Shown in pieces: positions 8,126 to 19,902 of a stretch of 39,024 nt of DNA (positions within the stretch are counted from its first letter, which is position 1; each line of letters starts with the position of its first letter). Source of the DNA: Armatimonadota bacterium (GTDB lineage: Bacteria > Armatimonadota > Fimbriimonadia > Fimbriimonadales > GBS-DC); the NCBI GenBank assembly GCA_013359125.1, contig JABWCR010000029.1:1-39024 (forward strand). Reading direction: 5' to 3'. The notes beneath the pieces are model-generated. The model did no database searches and was not told the DNA's origin. It was given only the letters and a program-made list of their open reading frames with translations. The translations under genes and the position numbers were made by a program.

Positions 8126-10555
8126 TTACGGCTCTGCGATGGGGTTCACGATGGTGTAGTGAATGTAGTTTGTCTCAATTGGAGCGGGACAGCCGCCGCC
8201 CGTAGTAGCAAATCCCATTCGAGTAATGCGCAGCACGCACGATCCGGGCATCTTTGCGTAGACCTGCACGTAGTACGAAGTCCAGGGCGGGGGCGGTCCG
8301 GGCACAGTTTCGACCGTTGCCTGGATGATGCTGCCCGTTTGGGGCGGTCCCGGGATGATCAGGGCGTTGCCTAGGGGCACGTCGGCATACCAGCCAATGG
8401 TGTGCGCGTGAGTACAGTCAGGGCAAGCATAGGCGCAACTAACGATCGGCAACCAGCCAGTGGTCACTTCGATCGTGCCGGCGAACCGATTGGTCAGAAG
8501 GCCTGAGACGGTAACCGCGCCGTCATGGACGCGCAGGGCAGCGGCGTTGGGGGTTCCCGGTGCGGATACCCCGTTGCCGTTTGCCCGCACACCGGCTCCT
8601 TCTGGATTGACGCCCAATGAAACGCCCCATGCGCCAAAGTAGGCGTCGTCGTCGTCGGCAGGCGCCACAAAGCCATAGGCTCCGGCCATGGAGGTGCCAA
8701 GATTGCCATAGTTGCCGCTTGCGGTATGTCGCCCATAAACGCCGAGGTAGTTGTCCGAAGTTCCATACACGCCGACGCCGTTTTCGCTTCTGCCGTTCAC
8801 CCCCGTGCTCTCGGTGCCCAGTTCGCCCGTGTTGAAGGTGGACTGGTGTCGGCCATAAGCGCCGACGTCGGGCAGCCCAAGACCTCCGCGATTGCTGGAG
8901 GAAAGATTGAGTGCTGCTACGCCGGCGGCAAAGTCGCTAATGCCGTAGACCCCGCTTGAGGTTTGGCTATTGCCGAGCACGCCGAACTGGGTAGCGCTGT
9001 TGCCTTGGACGCCATGGCCGTCTGTGCTGCGGCCTAATACGCCTTGATTGTTGCGGGATACTCCAACGACGCCATGGCTGTTCGTGCTGCTTCCAGTAAC
9101 GCCCACGCCGTTTCGGCTTTCGCCTCTTACCCCGTCGCCTCCTTGAGAAGTGTCGTCTGTGCCCCGCACGCCATAACTGGGCTCGCCGAGGCTTCCAAAC
9201 GTGCCGCTGTCATTAACGCCATACACCGCGCTTCCAGCGCCCATAGCTCTCGCGCCGATAGCGTGGCCGGCGCCGGTGTTTGTAATGGCGAACAGCGTGA
9301 TGATGTCGTCTCGGCTTTGAAAGAACGGCAGTCTGAGCTCGCCGGCAGTAGGATTTCCCCATGCTAAGCCGGTCTCTGTCATAGTAACGGCCTGTCCGAC
9401 CCCTGCGCCAAGCGCATTCAGCTTTGCTATGGACACCGCGCCGTCGGCGAGCATATTGGTCTGCACCCCTTGGTTTGCGATGGAGAACGAATTGCCGGTC
9501 AGGCTAAGGCCGGCGCCCGCTGTGTAACTCTGTGCGGGCTGCCATGTGCCATTGCCGACGGAGTCTGACGTAAGGACATAGCCTGCAGATGGGGAAAGGG
9601 TGAGTTGAATGCGGCTGGTCTTTATCCCACCGATAAACTCTGCTGCCGGTCCGGAGCCTAAGGTTCTGACGACCATTGCAGGGTTCGCGCTGGCCGCGTT
9701 GAGCGACTCGAAGTAGGCGGCGTATCCGACGCCGTTGGTGTAAGCGTGGAGCGCGGCCGCACTGTTCGAACTGTTGTCGATCTGAAAGAGACCGGCCCGA
9801 TCGGCGCCGCGAGTGTAAGCGAAGACGGCCGGCGAAGAGTTAGCCGCGTTGGTCATCTGCACTCGTAGGCCCCAACCCGTGCCGTTTGACAAGACATGAA
9901 CGGCGGCGTTGGAATTGGTCGGATTGTCTACTTGGAAGAGCGCAGCGCGTCCGGCGCCCTGGGCAGTGATGGAAAAGGCGGTCGATGCGCCCGAATATCC
10001 GCCGCTGTAGGGCAGCAGCAGTCGCGAGGCCGTCGGGTGCGACCAAACAAGCCGAGCGCCGTCGAACGTGAGGCTCTGTCCTGCCAGCGCGCCCGATGTT
10101 TCGATCGAAAAGGTATTTCCGACCAAGCGAAGACCCTCGCCCGCCATGCCGATGTCGTCGATGCCGTCGGCAAATCCGGACGGGATGCCTGAAAGCCCGC
10201 TCCACGGGCTACGACTGGAGAAAAGCGCTGTTGGCGCGTTGGCCAGTTTGATTCTGGGAGACAGAGTCGTGCCGCTGACTTCGATCTGAAGCCATCGGGC
10301 GGCGCCATCGAACACGGCTCCAAAGTCTAGGGATGCGCGAAAGAGGCCGTTGGATACGCCCACCCCGTTTCGGGTTACGGTAGGCCCGATTTGAGCGCCG
10401 CCTGTCGCTGAATCGTAAAGTCTAAAGGCCATGTCGAAGCTTCCGTTGGCTGGAAGCCCGTTGCTCTTCAAACTGCCTTGAAAGTCGATCTCGGTCTGTC
10501 CGAAGGCGCCGAGCGCCGCGACGACGAATAAGACTGTTGCAATGGCGAGTTTCAT
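8126..10555 (-). CDS. Large secreted tail-fibre-like repeat protein
   Basis: The start at 10555 (MKLAIATVLF) is preceded by GAGGAGG and yields a protein of about 809 residues with a signal peptide cut near AFGQ. Residues ~20-115 form a module (FQGSLKSNGLPANGSF, FRLYD, LSPRIKLANAPTALFS) shared with the protein at 35393-36976. Two linker blocks (AGEGLRLVGNTFSI and AGAGLSLTGNSFSI) precede segments of short Gly-Val repeats such as GVVGVSRNNQGVLGRS and GVYGTSDNYLGVYGRH. The C-terminal region (CAYACPDCTHAHTIGWY, PGPPPPW) differs from the other two paralogues. The composition (Gly, Ser, Asn, Ala; few Lys) suggests an extended trimeric or beta-solenoid surface fibre. Function is unknown; adhesion or biofilm matrix is a guess. 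Confidence 0.85.
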   Translation of the reverse strand: MKLAIATVLFVVAALGAFGQTEIDFQGSLKSNGLPANGSFDMAFRLYDSATGGAQIGPTVTRNGVGVSNGLFRASLDFGAVFDGAARWLQIEVSGTTLSPRIKLANAPTALFSSRSPWSGLSGIPSGFADGIDDIGMAGEGLRLVGNTFSIETSGALAGQSLTFDGARLVWSHPTASRLLLPYSGGYSGASTAFSITAQGAGRAALFQVDNPTNSNAAVHVLSNGTGWGLRVQMTNAANSSPAVFAYTRGADRAGLFQIDNSSNSAAALHAYTNGVGYAAYFESLNAASANPAMVVRTLGSGPAAEFIGGIKTSRIQLTLSPSAGYVLTSDSVGNGTWQPAQSYTAGAGLSLTGNSFSIANQGVQTNMLADGAVSIAKLNALGAGVGQAVTMTETGLAWGNPTAGELRLPFFQSRDDIITLFAITNTGAGHAIGARAMGAGSAVYGVNDSGTFGSLGEPSYGVRGTDDTSQGGDGVRGESRNGVGVTGSSTNSHGVVGVSRNNQGVLGRSTDGHGVQGNSATQFGVLGNSQTSSGVYGISDFAAGVAALNLSSSNRGGLGLPDVGAYGRHQSTFNTGELGTESTGVNGRSENGVGVYGTSDNYLGVYGRHTASGNYGNLGTSMAGAYGFVAPADDDDAYFGAWGVSLGVNPEGAGVRANGNGVSAPGTPNAAALRVHDGAVTVSGLLTNRFAGTIEVTTGWLPIVSCAYACPDCTHAHTIGWYADVPLGNALIIPGPPQTGSIIQATVETVPGPPPPWTSYYVQVYAKMPGSCVLRITRMGFATTGGGCPAPIETNYIHYTIVNPIAEP

Positions 10556-10644
10556 CGGATTTTCCTCCTCTATTGTGCGGCTATATATTCTAATCCTTTC
10601 TTGACGCAAATGTAGCGGGTATAACAGGCTTTACGGAGAGGTGT

Positions 10645-11055
10645 ATGGCAAAGATATCGGACTTGAGTTGGCTGACTGGGCATTGGAAGCGGGAGTTGCC
10701 GAACGGCATGGAGGGCGACGAGACCTGGACGCCCGCGACCGGGAGCATGATGGTGGGGGTCGGGCGAACGTTGCGCGGGGGGTCGTTGATCTTCTTAGAG
10801 TTTATGCGCGCGCGAGAGACGGAGAAGGGGCTGGAACTGCGGGTTTGGTTTGCTCACAAGGCCGAACTCTCGGGCGGTACGGCATTTGCGGAGAAGTCTT
10901 CCAAGCCTGGCGAGATTCTGTTCGAGAATTTGGCAAACGACTTTCCTCAGCGGATTCTCTATCGTTCGGACGGTCGGGATCGGCTTTTTGCGCGAATCGA
11001 AGGCGGCAAGGGCAATCCGGAAGAGTTTAAGTTCCGTCGGACGAGATTGGGGTAG
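10645..11055 (+). CDS. DUF6265 family protein
   Basis: This 136-residue soluble protein starts at an ATG preceded by GGAGAGG. It matches the DUF6265 pattern: LSWLTGHWKRELPNG at the start, DETWTPATGSMMVGVGRTLRGG, FLEFMRARE, and the C-terminal ENLANDFPQRILYRS followed by ARIEGG. The family is thought to form a lipocalin-like beta barrel; no ligand is known. The last 29 bp overlap the 3' end of the convergent membrane-protein gene, which is unusual but both frames look genuine. A GGTATAAC box at 10618-10625 may be its promoter. Confidence 0.85.
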   Translation: MAKISDLSWLTGHWKRELPNGMEGDETWTPATGSMMVGVGRTLRGGSLIFLEFMRARETEKGLELRVWFAHKAELSGGTAFAEKSSKPGEILFENLANDFPQRILYRSDGRDRLFARIEGGKGNPEEFKFRRTRLG

Positions 11056-11884
11056 AGGGCGGCGGTTCTTCGCCTCTCAGCCTTTTTTCGATTTCCCGTT
11101 CGGCTTCGTCGGATTGTCCCGGGTACCAGGTGATGATCCGGTCGTACTTGCGTTGCAATTTCTCTTTTTCGGACCTTAGTTCGTAGATTTTGGCTTCTGC
11201 GTCTGCGGCATTGACGCCATGCCTGTGGGCGTCCGCGGTTTGGAGCGCAAGGTTGAGATGGGGCAGTTCGTTGTCGATCTCTCGGATTCGTTTTTTGAAG
11301 TGATAGCCTTCGTCCAACCATCCATAGTCGGGAGAATCTTCTTGAGGTATTCGCGCTGCGACGCCCTTTACCCATTGAAGGTCTTCATAGGCGATGTCCT
11401 TTCTCAGCCAAGCCTTGAACAACATGAAGCCGAACAGCGAGGGCAGGCCAATTTCAAGAAGTCCCATAAACGCGGTGAGCATGTAGGAAGTAGCTCTCGG
11501 TCGGCCTTGTTCGATCATCAGGTCGGCTCTGAAGTAACTGATCGCGGCAATGGCGCCGACACAAGCCAAGAAGATGAGCAGCGTGAAGAACCGAAGGATG
11601 CCTGGAGCTCTGTAGTGGCGTTCCAACAAGTAGGCATGCAGCGCCAAGCCCGTACCCATGTGCACGATGCCGCCTATCATGTAGGACGCGACGTCGTCTT
11701 GAGTGAATCTGCGGATGGCGGCGGCCGTGAGCATGGCAAACGCTATGGAGACAATGATCAGCGCCATCGTCCAGCCGACCGTGGCTCGTACCGCCGAATC
11801 GTATTCTTCTTGGACGTTTTGGCGCATTAGGTTGCCGGCTTGAATGAAGCGCGCGTGATCGTTCTGATCTTGATTGGACGCCAT
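11027..11884 (-). CDS. Four-helix membrane protein with cytoplasmic coiled coil, unknown family
   Basis: The chosen start (MASNQDQND, 11884) has GGGAGG 7 nt upstream and gives 285 residues. The longer frame adds an Arg-rich stretch without a ribosome site. Four hydrophobic segments follow: TVGWTMALIIVSIAFAMLTA, then IGGIVHMGTGLALHAYLL, FFTLLIFLACVGAIAAISYF and LTAFMGLLEIGLPSLFGFML. The C-terminal ~110 residues are charged and helical (KKRIREIDNELPHLN, KIYELRSEKEKLQRKYDRI), probably a coiled coil. I do not recognise the family. It is the last gene of a minus-strand cassette with the vWA protein (11-bp gap) and the small membrane protein to its right. Confidence 0.8.
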   Translation of the reverse strand: MASNQDQNDHARFIQAGNLMRQNVQEEYDSAVRATVGWTMALIIVSIAFAMLTAAAIRRFTQDDVASYMIGGIVHMGTGLALHAYLLERHYRAPGILRFFTLLIFLACVGAIAAISYFRADLMIEQGRPRATSYMLTAFMGLLEIGLPSLFGFMLFKAWLRKDIAYEDLQWVKGVAARIPQEDSPDYGWLDEGYHFKKRIREIDNELPHLNLALQTADAHRHGVNAADAEAKIYELRSEKEKLQRKYDRIITWYPGQSDEAEREIEKRLRGEEPPPSTPISSDGT

Positions 11885-15235: not shown

Positions 15236-15325
15236 CCAGCCACCCCTATTTATTCTGGCTTTGGCACGCCCGTTTCGCAGGTTGACGGTTGCGCTTTAGA
15301 TCGCCTTACCAGCGGAGGTGACGAT

Positions 15326-16393
15326 TTGAAACTGTTCGACCGAATAAAACGCAGGCCGTTGACCAAGGAGCTTGCGCCGAGCGGGATCGTCTCGACCGGA
15401 GAGCGACTGCCCAAGTGGAACGGCGACGAACTGATCGCCAAGCACGGTTATGCTATCTATGAGAAGATGAGCCAGGACGCGCACGTTAAGGCCTGTTTGA
15501 ACGCCAAACGGTATGCCCTGCTCAGCGTCGGATGGCGCATTGAGGCGGCGGACAAATCGATTCTGGCTCAAAGAGCGGCGCGGTTTTGCCAGGACGCGCT
15601 CAATCAGATCGAGGGCGGGTTGAGGACCGTGCTTTGGAACGCGCTGGACGCCTTGAGCAAGGGTTTTAGCGTTCAGGAGACGATCTTTGCGCAGTCTGGC
15701 AGCGCTCTCGTCATCCGTACGACGAAAGCGAAAGACCCGTCTGCGTTCGTGTTCGAGACGGATGAGTTTGGCAACATCCTCGCCTTGCGCATGACGACGC
15801 CGGACGGTCGCACAATCGATTTGCCGCCCGAAAAGTTCATCGTCTATCCCTTTGGGGTCAAGTACGAATCGCCCTATGGCGAATCGGATCTAAAAGCCGC
15901 TTACAAGCATTGGTTCGCCAAAGATCGCCTTATCCGGTTCTGGAACGTTTACTTGGAGAAGTTTGCGACGCCAACTCTGATCGGCACGTATCAGCGCGGC
16001 TTGCCTCCGCAACTGCAGTCTGAATTGTTGGAGGCTTTGGAGCGCGTGCAACAAGAAACAGCCATCGTAACTCCCGAGGAGGTGCGAATTCAGGCTTTAG
16101 AGATCGCTCAGCATGGCGCCGGGGCGTACAAAGAGGCATTGGCCTTTCACAACGCGGAGATCTCTAAGTCCATTTTGGGCGAGACTTTGACGGTGGACGA
16201 GGGACGGACGGTGGGCAGCCTTGCGCTAGGTCAGGTGCACATGGATGCTTTGGCCGCGCATCTTCGTTCCATCCGGCTCGATTTGGCGGATCGTGTGGCG
16301 GCGCGACAAATTCTCAAGCCTCTGATCGAACTCAACTTGCCTGGAGCGCCGGTCCCTCGCTTTGAATGGGAAGAATCGACCCGCTGGACTTGA
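15326..16393 (+). CDS. Phage portal protein of the Mu gp29 type (DUF935), solitary
   Basis: The best start is a TTG at 15326 preceded by GGAGGT 7 nt away, giving 355 residues (LKLFDRIKRRPLTKEL); the open frame extends 42 codons further upstream without a ribosome site. DUF935 landmarks are DAHVKACLNAKRYALLSVGW, ALSKGFSVQETIF, the portal core YPFGVKYESPYGESDLKAAY, FWNVYLEKFATPTLIGTY and SILGETLTVDEGRTVGS. Portals form the dodecameric DNA gate of phage heads. Mu gp29 is about 510 residues, so this copy ends soon after the core. No terminase, protease, capsid or tail gene is next to it. The open frame is undamaged, so it is either a recently stranded prophage remnant or a domesticated gene. Its stop codon lies inside the dnaK operator. 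Confidence 0.85.
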   Translation: MKLFDRIKRRPLTKELAPSGIVSTGERLPKWNGDELIAKHGYAIYEKMSQDAHVKACLNAKRYALLSVGWRIEAADKSILAQRAARFCQDALNQIEGGLRTVLWNALDALSKGFSVQETIFAQSGSALVIRTTKAKDPSAFVFETDEFGNILALRMTTPDGRTIDLPPEKFIVYPFGVKYESPYGESDLKAAYKHWFAKDRLIRFWNVYLEKFATPTLIGTYQRGLPPQLQSELLEALERVQQETAIVTPEEVRIQALEIAQHGAGAYKEALAFHNAEISKSILGETLTVDEGRTVGSLALGQVHMDALAAHLRSIRLDLADRVAARQILKPLIELNLPGAPVPRFEWEESTRWT

Positions 16394-16409
16394 TAATATC
16401 GCGCTCAAG
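16389..16409. promoter_or_regulatory. HAIR-like operator (HspR binding site) upstream of dnaK
   Basis: CTTGATA - 7 nt - GCTCAAG matches the HAIR layout CTTGAGT-N7-ACTCAAG known from actinobacterial HspR regulons, with the CTTGA and TCAAG cores and the spacing exact. It lies between the -35 and -10 of the dnaK promoter and covers the portal stop codon. The operon's third gene encodes an HspR-like repressor, so autoregulation is expected. Confidence 0.8.
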
Positions 16410-16517: not shown

Positions 16518-18416
16518 ATGGCAAAAACAGTAGGAATCGACTTAGGCACCACTAACTCGGTCGTGGCCGTCATGGAAGGCGGCGAGCCGGTCGTCATCTC
16601 AACGGCGGAGGGCAGTCGGCTATGCCCGTCGGTGGTCGCCTTTACCAAGGGCGGGGAGCGATTGGTCGGGGCGCCGGCCAAGCGTCAGGCGGTCGTCAAC
16701 CCTGAGAACACGATCTTTTCGGTCAAGCGATTCATGGGGCATCGATTGGACGAAGTTTCGGAAGAGTCTAAGAGAGTGCCTTACAAGATCGTTGCCGACT
16801 CGAAAGGCGACGTTGCGATCGAGATTCCGGCGGTCGGCAAGCCGTTTCGACCGGAAGAGATTTCGGCCATGATCCTGCAGAAGCTAAAGCAGGATGCAGA
16901 GGCCTATCTGGGCGAGCCGGTAACTCAGGCCGTTATCACCGTTCCGGCCTACTTTAACGACGCTCAGCGCACCGCGACCAAGAACGCGGGCGAGATCGCG
17001 GGCTTGAACGTGCTTCGGATCATTAACGAGCCGACGGCGGCCGCGCTGGCCTATGGATTGGATAAGAAGAGCAACGAGACGATTCTCGTCTTCGACCTGG
17101 GCGGCGGGACGTTCGACGTTTCTATTCTCGAGGTCGGCGACGGCGTTTTCGAGGTCAAGTCCACATCGGGCGACACGCATTTGGGCGGCGACGACTTTGA
17201 TCAGCGAGTCTTAGAGTACGTCGCCGACGACTTTAAGAAGTCCACCGGCATCGACTTGCGTCAGGACGCCCAGGCAATACAGCGTTTGAAGGAAGCCGCC
17301 GAGCGCGCGAAGATCGAGCTTTCCAGCACGATCAGCACCAGCATCAATCTGCCTTACATTACGGCAGACGCATCCGGCCCCAAACACTTGGACATGAGCC
17401 TCACGCGGTCGAAGTTTGAGGAGCTTTGCGCCGATCTGATCGAACGCACCAAGGAGCCGTTCTTCAAGGCGATCGAAGACGCCAAGCTGAAGCCGACCGA
17501 CATCGACGAGGTGATTTTGGTAGGCGGTTCGACGCGCATTCCGGCCATTCAAGAGATGTTGCGCAAGGTGATCGGCAAGGAGCCTCACAAGGGCGTCAAC
17601 CCGGACGAGGTCGTTGCGATCGGGGCGGCTATCCAGGGCGGCGTGCTGGCGGGCGAGGTGAAGGATGTCGTGCTTTTGGACGTTACGCCTCTTTCGTTGG
17701 GCATCGAGACCAAAGGCGGCGTGTTTACCGCGCTGATCGAGCGCAACACGACGATCCCTACTCGCAAGAGCCAAACCTTTACGACCGCGGACGACAATCA
17801 GACGCAGGTCGAGATCAAGGTCTTGCAGGGCGAGCGCCCGATGGCGAGCCAGAACAAGATGATCGGCACGTTCAATCTGGACGGCATACCGCCTGCGCCG
17901 CAGGGCATTCCACAAATCGAGGTCTCGTTCGACATCGACGCGAACGGAATTTTACAGGTGAGCGCAAAAGATACAGCGACCGGCAAAGAGCAGTCGATCA
18001 AGATCACCGGCTCGGGCAATCTGAACAAGGAAGAGATTCAGCGGATGGTCAGGGAGGCTGAGGCCAACGCCGCCCAGGATGCTAAGTTCAAGGAAGACGC
18101 AGAGACTCGAAACAAGGGCGATCATCTGGCGCACAGCGCAGAGAAGCTTCTGCGCGAACAGGGCGAGGAGATGACCCAAGACGAGCGCATGAACATCGAA
18201 AACCTTGCGCGCGACCTGAGGACTGCCATCCAGAACATGGAGATGGAGTTGGTCCGATCCAAGATGAGCGAGCTGGAGCAGGCAGTCTATGCGGTTACGG
18301 AGCGGCTCTACAAAGAGAAGTCTGAGAACGCGCAAGAGCCGACCGACACCAACGGACGAGAAGAGGCCGAAACGAACGCGGACGATGTGATCGACGCGGA
18401 GTTTCAGCAGAACTAG
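16518..18416 (+). CDS. dnaK: Molecular chaperone DnaK (Hsp70)
   Basis: This 632-residue Hsp70 uses ATP to bind and release unfolded polypeptides with DnaJ and a nucleotide exchange factor. The ATPase domain shows [17 protein letters not shown] at the start, [47 protein letters not shown] and [11 protein letters not shown]. The linker [14 protein letters not shown] leads into the substrate-binding domain. The C-terminus ends [11 protein letters not shown], the usual EEVD-like bacterial tail. The start has GGAGG and a nearer AAGGA upstream. It is the first gene of dnaK-dnaJ-hspR-tsaE and its promoter carries a HAIR operator. Confidence 0.98.
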
Positions 18417-19494: not shown

Positions 19495-19902
19495 ATGTTG
19501 ATACGATTCCAATTAGAAGAAGCGTCGGAAGAGCCGGTCTTTATGATCGGGGTGGCCGCCAGGCTGTGCGGCCTGCATCCTCAGACCTTAAGACTGTACG
19601 AGCGGTTAGGGCTGATTCAGCCTTTGCGCCGCGGCGCCCAAAAGCGGCTCTATTCACAAGCCGACATCGTTCGCCTAAAACGCATCCAACATTTGACGCA
19701 GGACTTGGGCGTCAATCTGGCCGGGGTCGATATCATCCTTCGCTTGCTCGACCGGATCGACAAAATGGAGAGCGAGATGGAGGAGCTGGTCCGTGCGACC
19801 AATGCACGAATGCGAGAGTTAGTGAAGCAGCATAAGCTTCCAGTGGAGTTCAGCAAGCTCGAGATTCGGTTGGAACGAGCCAACTCCGAGCCTGAGAAGT
19901 GA
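19495..19902 (+). CDS. hspR: HspR-like MerR-family heat-shock repressor
   Basis: This 135-residue MerR-type regulator has the HspR core: FMIGVAARLCGLHPQTLRLY followed by ERLGLIQPLRR, then SQADIVRLKRIQHLTQDLGVN, split here. A leucine-rich C-terminal helix (ILRLLDRIDKMESEMEELV) serves for dimerisation. Effector-type MerR cysteines are missing, as in HspR. In Streptomyces, HspR binds HAIR sites and uses DnaK as co-repressor; the matching HAIR site sits in this operon's own promoter. It starts 4 bp after dnaJ and its stop overlaps the tsaE GTG. Confidence 0.93.
   Translation: MLIRFQLEEASEEPVFMIGVAARLCGLHPQTLRLYERLGLIQPLRRGAQKRLYSQADIVRLKRIQHLTQDLGVNLAGVDIILRLLDRIDKMESEMEELVRATNARMRELVKQHKLPVEFSKLEIRLERANSEPEK

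Follow-up and report, generated by a model that had tools for sequence, protein, structure and literature searches.

Why would a bacterium keep a single, undamaged phage portal gene among its own genes? In a phage head the portal protein forms the channel through which DNA passes and the dock for the motor, and in the stretch of DNA analysed here (39,024 nucleotides, hereafter the window) such a gene lies just upstream of dnaK. A preliminary description had pointed to an intact, solitary Mu-type portal gene with a good ribosome-binding site and no other phage head or tail gene nearby, and had proposed that such an orphan reflects either a domesticated function, a part of a gene transfer agent (GTA) or very recent stranding. 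Here we follow the portal gene through related genomes, together with the packaging and head genes that accompany it.

An intact portal gene among host genes

The portal gene occupies positions 15326-16393 of the + strand. Its reading frame is open and undamaged, begins with TTG six nucleotides after the ribosome-binding site GGAGGT (15314-15319, + strand), and encodes a product of 355 amino acids (aa). This product matches PF06074 (Portal_Mu/DUF935) over profile positions 1-303 of 336 (E 2.4e-71) with 241 bits, far above the gathering score of 23.9, and is thus a member of the family; it also matches the portal family PHROG 113. The AlphaFold model shows a confident portal fold (mean pLDDT 87), and a fold search with this model retrieves experimentally solved portal structures from JBD30, G20c and Mu (best E 1.7e-17), of which JBD30 is the closest structural match. 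No other real portal is found in the source genome.

The neighbours are host genes: tsaE, dnaK (16518-18416, + strand), dnaJ and a MerR-family repressor of the dnaK operon (19495-19902, + strand), which we call HspR-like from its position and from the presence of a HAIR-like site. Inspection of the locus showed no MuF head-morphogenesis gene next to the portal. A pattern search places the portal stop codon TGA (16391-16393) within a putative HspR operator, CTTGATA-ATATCGC-GCTCAAG (CTTGATA-N7-GCTCAAG; 16389-16409, + strand), in agreement with the earlier observation that the gene ends inside the dnaK operator. The core CTTGA-N11-TCAAG occurs once in the window compared with 0.04 expected occurrences, and the site overlaps a match to the dnaK promoter (TTGATA-17-CATAAT). 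We take the HAIR consensus to be CTTGAGT-N7-ACTCAAG. The operator is nevertheless an incidental neighbour. Portal flanks vary from genome to genome, and the adjacency to dnaK, for which synteny in relatives had been suggested as a check, is found in the source genome and at no other fetched portal locus; a functional link between portal and dnaK was therefore rejected. Downstream of the dnaK operon lies a solitary HNH_2 endonuclease gene (PF13391; 20975-21874).

The portal is conserved across Fimbriimonadales

Named relatives place the source genome in Armatimonadota, Fimbriimonadia. PF06074 is present in 72 of 101 relatives of the order Fimbriimonadales, a minority of these being prophage-type matches, in all 18 genomes of the source genome's own family (f1), and in none of 14 control genomes. 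Most matches consist of one short intact gene per genome, encoding 351-371 aa; the weaker and longer ones, in frames of 430-690 aa, are most likely prophages. One genome of family f2 (G018) has a divergent portal and major capsid protein (MCP) and was left out of both the portal tree and this length range. The window's portal is indeed shorter than Mu gp29, as had been remarked, since the RcapMu portal measures 458 aa and gp29 is longer still, but this is no truncation: short portals, mostly of 351-371 aa, are the norm of the family across the order.

Between close pairs, the portal dN/dS ranges from 0.03 to 0.18, and the gene is under purifying selection. The idea that an undamaged orphan implies selection is thus borne out, while very recent stranding conflicts with both the order-wide distribution and the selection. 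Where a prophage would be a contiguous phage genome of sporadic distribution, this gene is solitary among host genes and order-wide.

Terminase and capsid genes accompany the portal at separate loci

An intact large terminase gene, terL, is likewise found order-wide in Fimbriimonadales, and its product conserves the Walker A, Walker B and nuclease Asp residues. The capsid protein is of the Mu gpT type and is also order-wide (41 of 61 genomes), in an operon that additionally holds a protease, a decoration protein and small proteins. The portal, TerL, MCP, protease and decoration protein all match phage families. The HK97-type capsid family PF05065 was considered as the order's capsid and rejected, as it is not order-wide.

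The arrangement of these genes differs between families. In most f3 and f5 genomes terL is directly upstream of the portal; in f1 the two lie apart. The dispersed phage genes that the preliminary description had proposed to look for do exist in the source genome: terL is on contig C39, and contig C23 carries a protease/scaffold gene, a decoration protein gene, the gpT-type MCP gene and two small protein genes, so that portal, terL and head operon are on three separate contigs. On the single-contig chromosome of another member of f1 (G003), the portal is at 1,233,459, the MCP at 1,412,299 and terL at 2,272,893, that is 0.18 Mb from portal to MCP and 1.04 Mb from portal to terL.

Despite this dispersal, the genes are inherited together. 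Portal and MCP co-occur (contingency table 41, 4, 0, 16; Fisher p 2e-11). Judged against family labels, the portal, TerL and MCP trees are congruent, with f1, f3 and f5 each forming one clade in all three, some with weak support, and their distances are correlated (0.87, 0.88 and 0.67, each p 1e-4). The GC content of the portal, terL and MCP genes is 57-62%, compared with 57.6% for the window.

Upstream of the portal is the element GGTTGAC (15280-15286, + strand), of a kind seen before the terL and head-operon genes of relatives. More specifically, GTTG[AC]C (GGTTGAC or GGTTGCC) occurs in 40 of 54 upstream regions of system genes versus 27 of 643 other genes at the same loci; the counts come from related genomes, which are not independent of one another, and in part from manually assigned start codons. 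In the source genome, terL and the head operon have GGTTTAC. The element resembles an ordinary -35 box. We take these counts only as supporting evidence that one upstream element is apparently common to the separate portal, terL and head loci.

Searches for tail genes and the small terminase

Five models were used to search for tail genes: three (PF10145, phrog_33 and PF04984) on 31 genomes and two (phrog_28 and PF13550) on 29. None of the five revealed a tail attributable to the portal/TerL/MCP system in Fimbriimonadales, in a search that could miss divergent tails. The three models run on 31 genomes gave one sheath match above the cut-off, in G020. PF13550 did pick up tails in G058 and in G077, located 16-20 kb from separate portals of prophage type, which shows that this model works in these genomes. 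The only strong phrog_28 result was in G132, outside the order; this genome of another family has two tape-measure matches, one 70 kb from its head cluster and one on another contig. This outcome supports taillessness, short of proof. A profile search of 61 Fimbriimonadales genomes for the small terminase (TerS) of related clusters detected none.

Head clusters in other Armatimonadota and in phages

Of 201 genomes sampled evenly across the phylum Armatimonadota, 69 have a similar MCP, which occurs in many families outside Fimbriimonadales. In several of these the genes form a single cluster in the order TerS-terL-portal-protease-decoration-MCP-small proteins, and the contiguous clusters of several families are bounded by host genes on both sides. 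Some carry an amidase or other wall hydrolase (endolysin). The sequences of family f8 cluster with those of f1, within the Fimbriimonadia, and family f12 (G121, G153) may be prophage. Among viral contigs from IMG/VR, a few nest among the Armatimonadota sequences; L338 and L340 look like true phages. Head-tail adaptor genes are present on L338 and L339 in addition to the same head genes, and L339 has tape-measure and Dit tail genes as well.

A probable dispersed, GTA-like head and packaging system

We consider it likely that the portal is one part of a GTA-like head and packaging system that is dispersed and vertically inherited, perhaps tailless, and that would package and transfer host DNA. 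Conservation, purifying selection and the dispersed terminase and capsid genes of the source genome favour the gene-transfer-agent part among the explanations first proposed.

By analogy with tailed-phage assembly in general, the system could operate as follows. A phage head would have been domesticated by Fimbriimonadales and passed on vertically, with the portal as one component. The portal, terL and head loci would be expressed together, probably via the shared upstream element. The capsid protein would assemble on the portal and, with the protease, form a prohead that the protease then matures; TerL would dock on the portal and pump host DNA through it. That the DNA would be the host's follows from the scattering of the genes, which leaves no element genome packable as a unit; we infer host-DNA packaging from this lack of a linked genome and from a TerS of related clusters that is not detectable. 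Filled heads would be released by lysis as a GTA-like particle, possibly tailless, a step suggested by the wall hydrolases encoded with the contiguous clusters in other families. That the DNA would then reach other cells is a guess made by analogy.

GTAs are defined by proteins derived from tailed phages, full endogenisation (often at multiple loci), vertical inheritance with co-diversification with the host, their own genes not being fully packageable into one particle, particles resembling tailed virions, packaging of mostly random host DNA, and delivery of this DNA to other cells (PMC9662315). Here, five proteins are phage-derived (portal, TerL, MCP, protease and decoration protein); the genes are endogenised at multiple loci (three contigs; about 0.18 Mb and 1.04 Mb apart in G003); and the congruent portal, TerL and MCP trees with their correlated distances, with family labels as reference, indicate vertical inheritance. 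Packaging of the system's own loci as a unit is very unlikely, with loci up to 1 Mb apart. We call the system GTA-like rather than a GTA because three defining features are present, one more is very likely, and the system is known here from genes alone.

The strongest competing explanation is a tailed GTA with its tail genes scattered to other sites and diverged beyond the reach of the models used. We regard it as possible though somewhat doubtful: particles in the GTA definition are tailed-virion-like (PMC9662315) and phage contigs with the same head genes (L338, L339) encode head-tail adaptors and, in L339, tail proteins, but the five models found no tail for the system even though PF13550 recovered the G058 and G077 prophage tails, and in several families the contiguous head cluster gives way to host genes. 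Alternatively, the head may have been domesticated for a role other than transfer, for example DNA sequestration or the release of protected DNA. The failure to find a tail, the wall-hydrolase genes adjoining the cluster in several relatives and the conserved packaging motor would all fit, but conservation of terminase and portal says only that DNA is packaged; we know of no precedent for such a head, and hold this role to be unlikely. That the gene is a random prophage scrap newly stranded beside dnaK, as its isolation in the window and the lack of dnaK synteny elsewhere might suggest, is highly improbable given order-wide, mostly single-copy intact homologues at low dN/dS, family-congruent trees and co-occurrence with TerL and MCP; absence from relatives and relaxed selection, proposed as the signs of such a scrap, were not what we found.

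The GTA-like reading can be extended, more tentatively and at a little under even chances, to many Armatimonadota lineages: an ancient, vertically inherited, tailless head machine (TerL, portal, protease, decoration protein and capsid protein, with TerS and endolysin in several families) that would package host DNA, be released by lysis and transfer genes without a tail, and that became scattered in Fimbriimonadales, with a single promoter type common to its loci. That one domestication event accounts for all Armatimonadota is unproven, given the IMG/VR contigs that nest among them and the grouping of f8 with f1.

Comparison with known systems

Like the RcGTA-type, Bartonella and Brachyspira GTAs, the system consists of phage-derived head and packaging genes that are endogenised at several loci and vertically inherited (PMC9662315). 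It differs from them in its Mu/gpT-type head and DUF935 portal, in packaging genes that stand apart singly or in pairs, in having no tail module found, and in being known from genes alone. With Mu-like phage heads (RcapMu, the JBD30/B3 group, L338 and L339) it shares Portal_Mu, the gpT-type capsid protein, the protease and the decoration protein, but these phages are complete, with tails and a contiguous genome each, and the portal here is about 355 aa. Encapsulin nanocompartments are likewise domesticated HK97-like shells, but lack portal and terminase, both of which are conserved here. In the literature consulted, we found no gene transfer agent described for Armatimonadota.

A phage head retained throughout an order, scattered but co-inherited, would represent a further, independent origin of GTA-like systems. 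Because it apparently lacks a tail, it would also allow a test of whether a tail is required at all for packaged DNA to be transferred. The case also cautions that a phage gene standing alone in a metagenome-assembled genome may be a working part and not debris.

Further observations at the terminase and head loci

The terL gene of G031 (L045, contig C31) is split into two frames on the - strand (10528-11082 and 11185-11796), through sequencing error or decay. The source-genome MCP (L316:9304-10236, contig C23) matches PF10124 in the apparently swapped segment order 1-150, 219-289, 150-216, while BLAST against phage MCPs is colinear. A PilT-like ATPase, recognised by eye, adjoins this head operon (L316:6989-8239).

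The small proteins downstream of the MCP are called adaptor-like by position only; for the helical protein of about 145 aa among them, a fold search and an hhalign profile comparison gave no connector identity. In part of f1, the MCP is followed by proteins of 121-199 aa and one of 680-717 aa (L319:6934-9651, L320:2687-6218, L321:10346-12858), which may represent a head fibre or a surface enzyme; no Pfam or PHROG family matches the L319 copies. In G021 the head operon is split (L333:8286-19273), the protease and decoration genes being separated from the MCP by about 8 kb that contains host-like genes, which gives the impression of a dispersal still under way.
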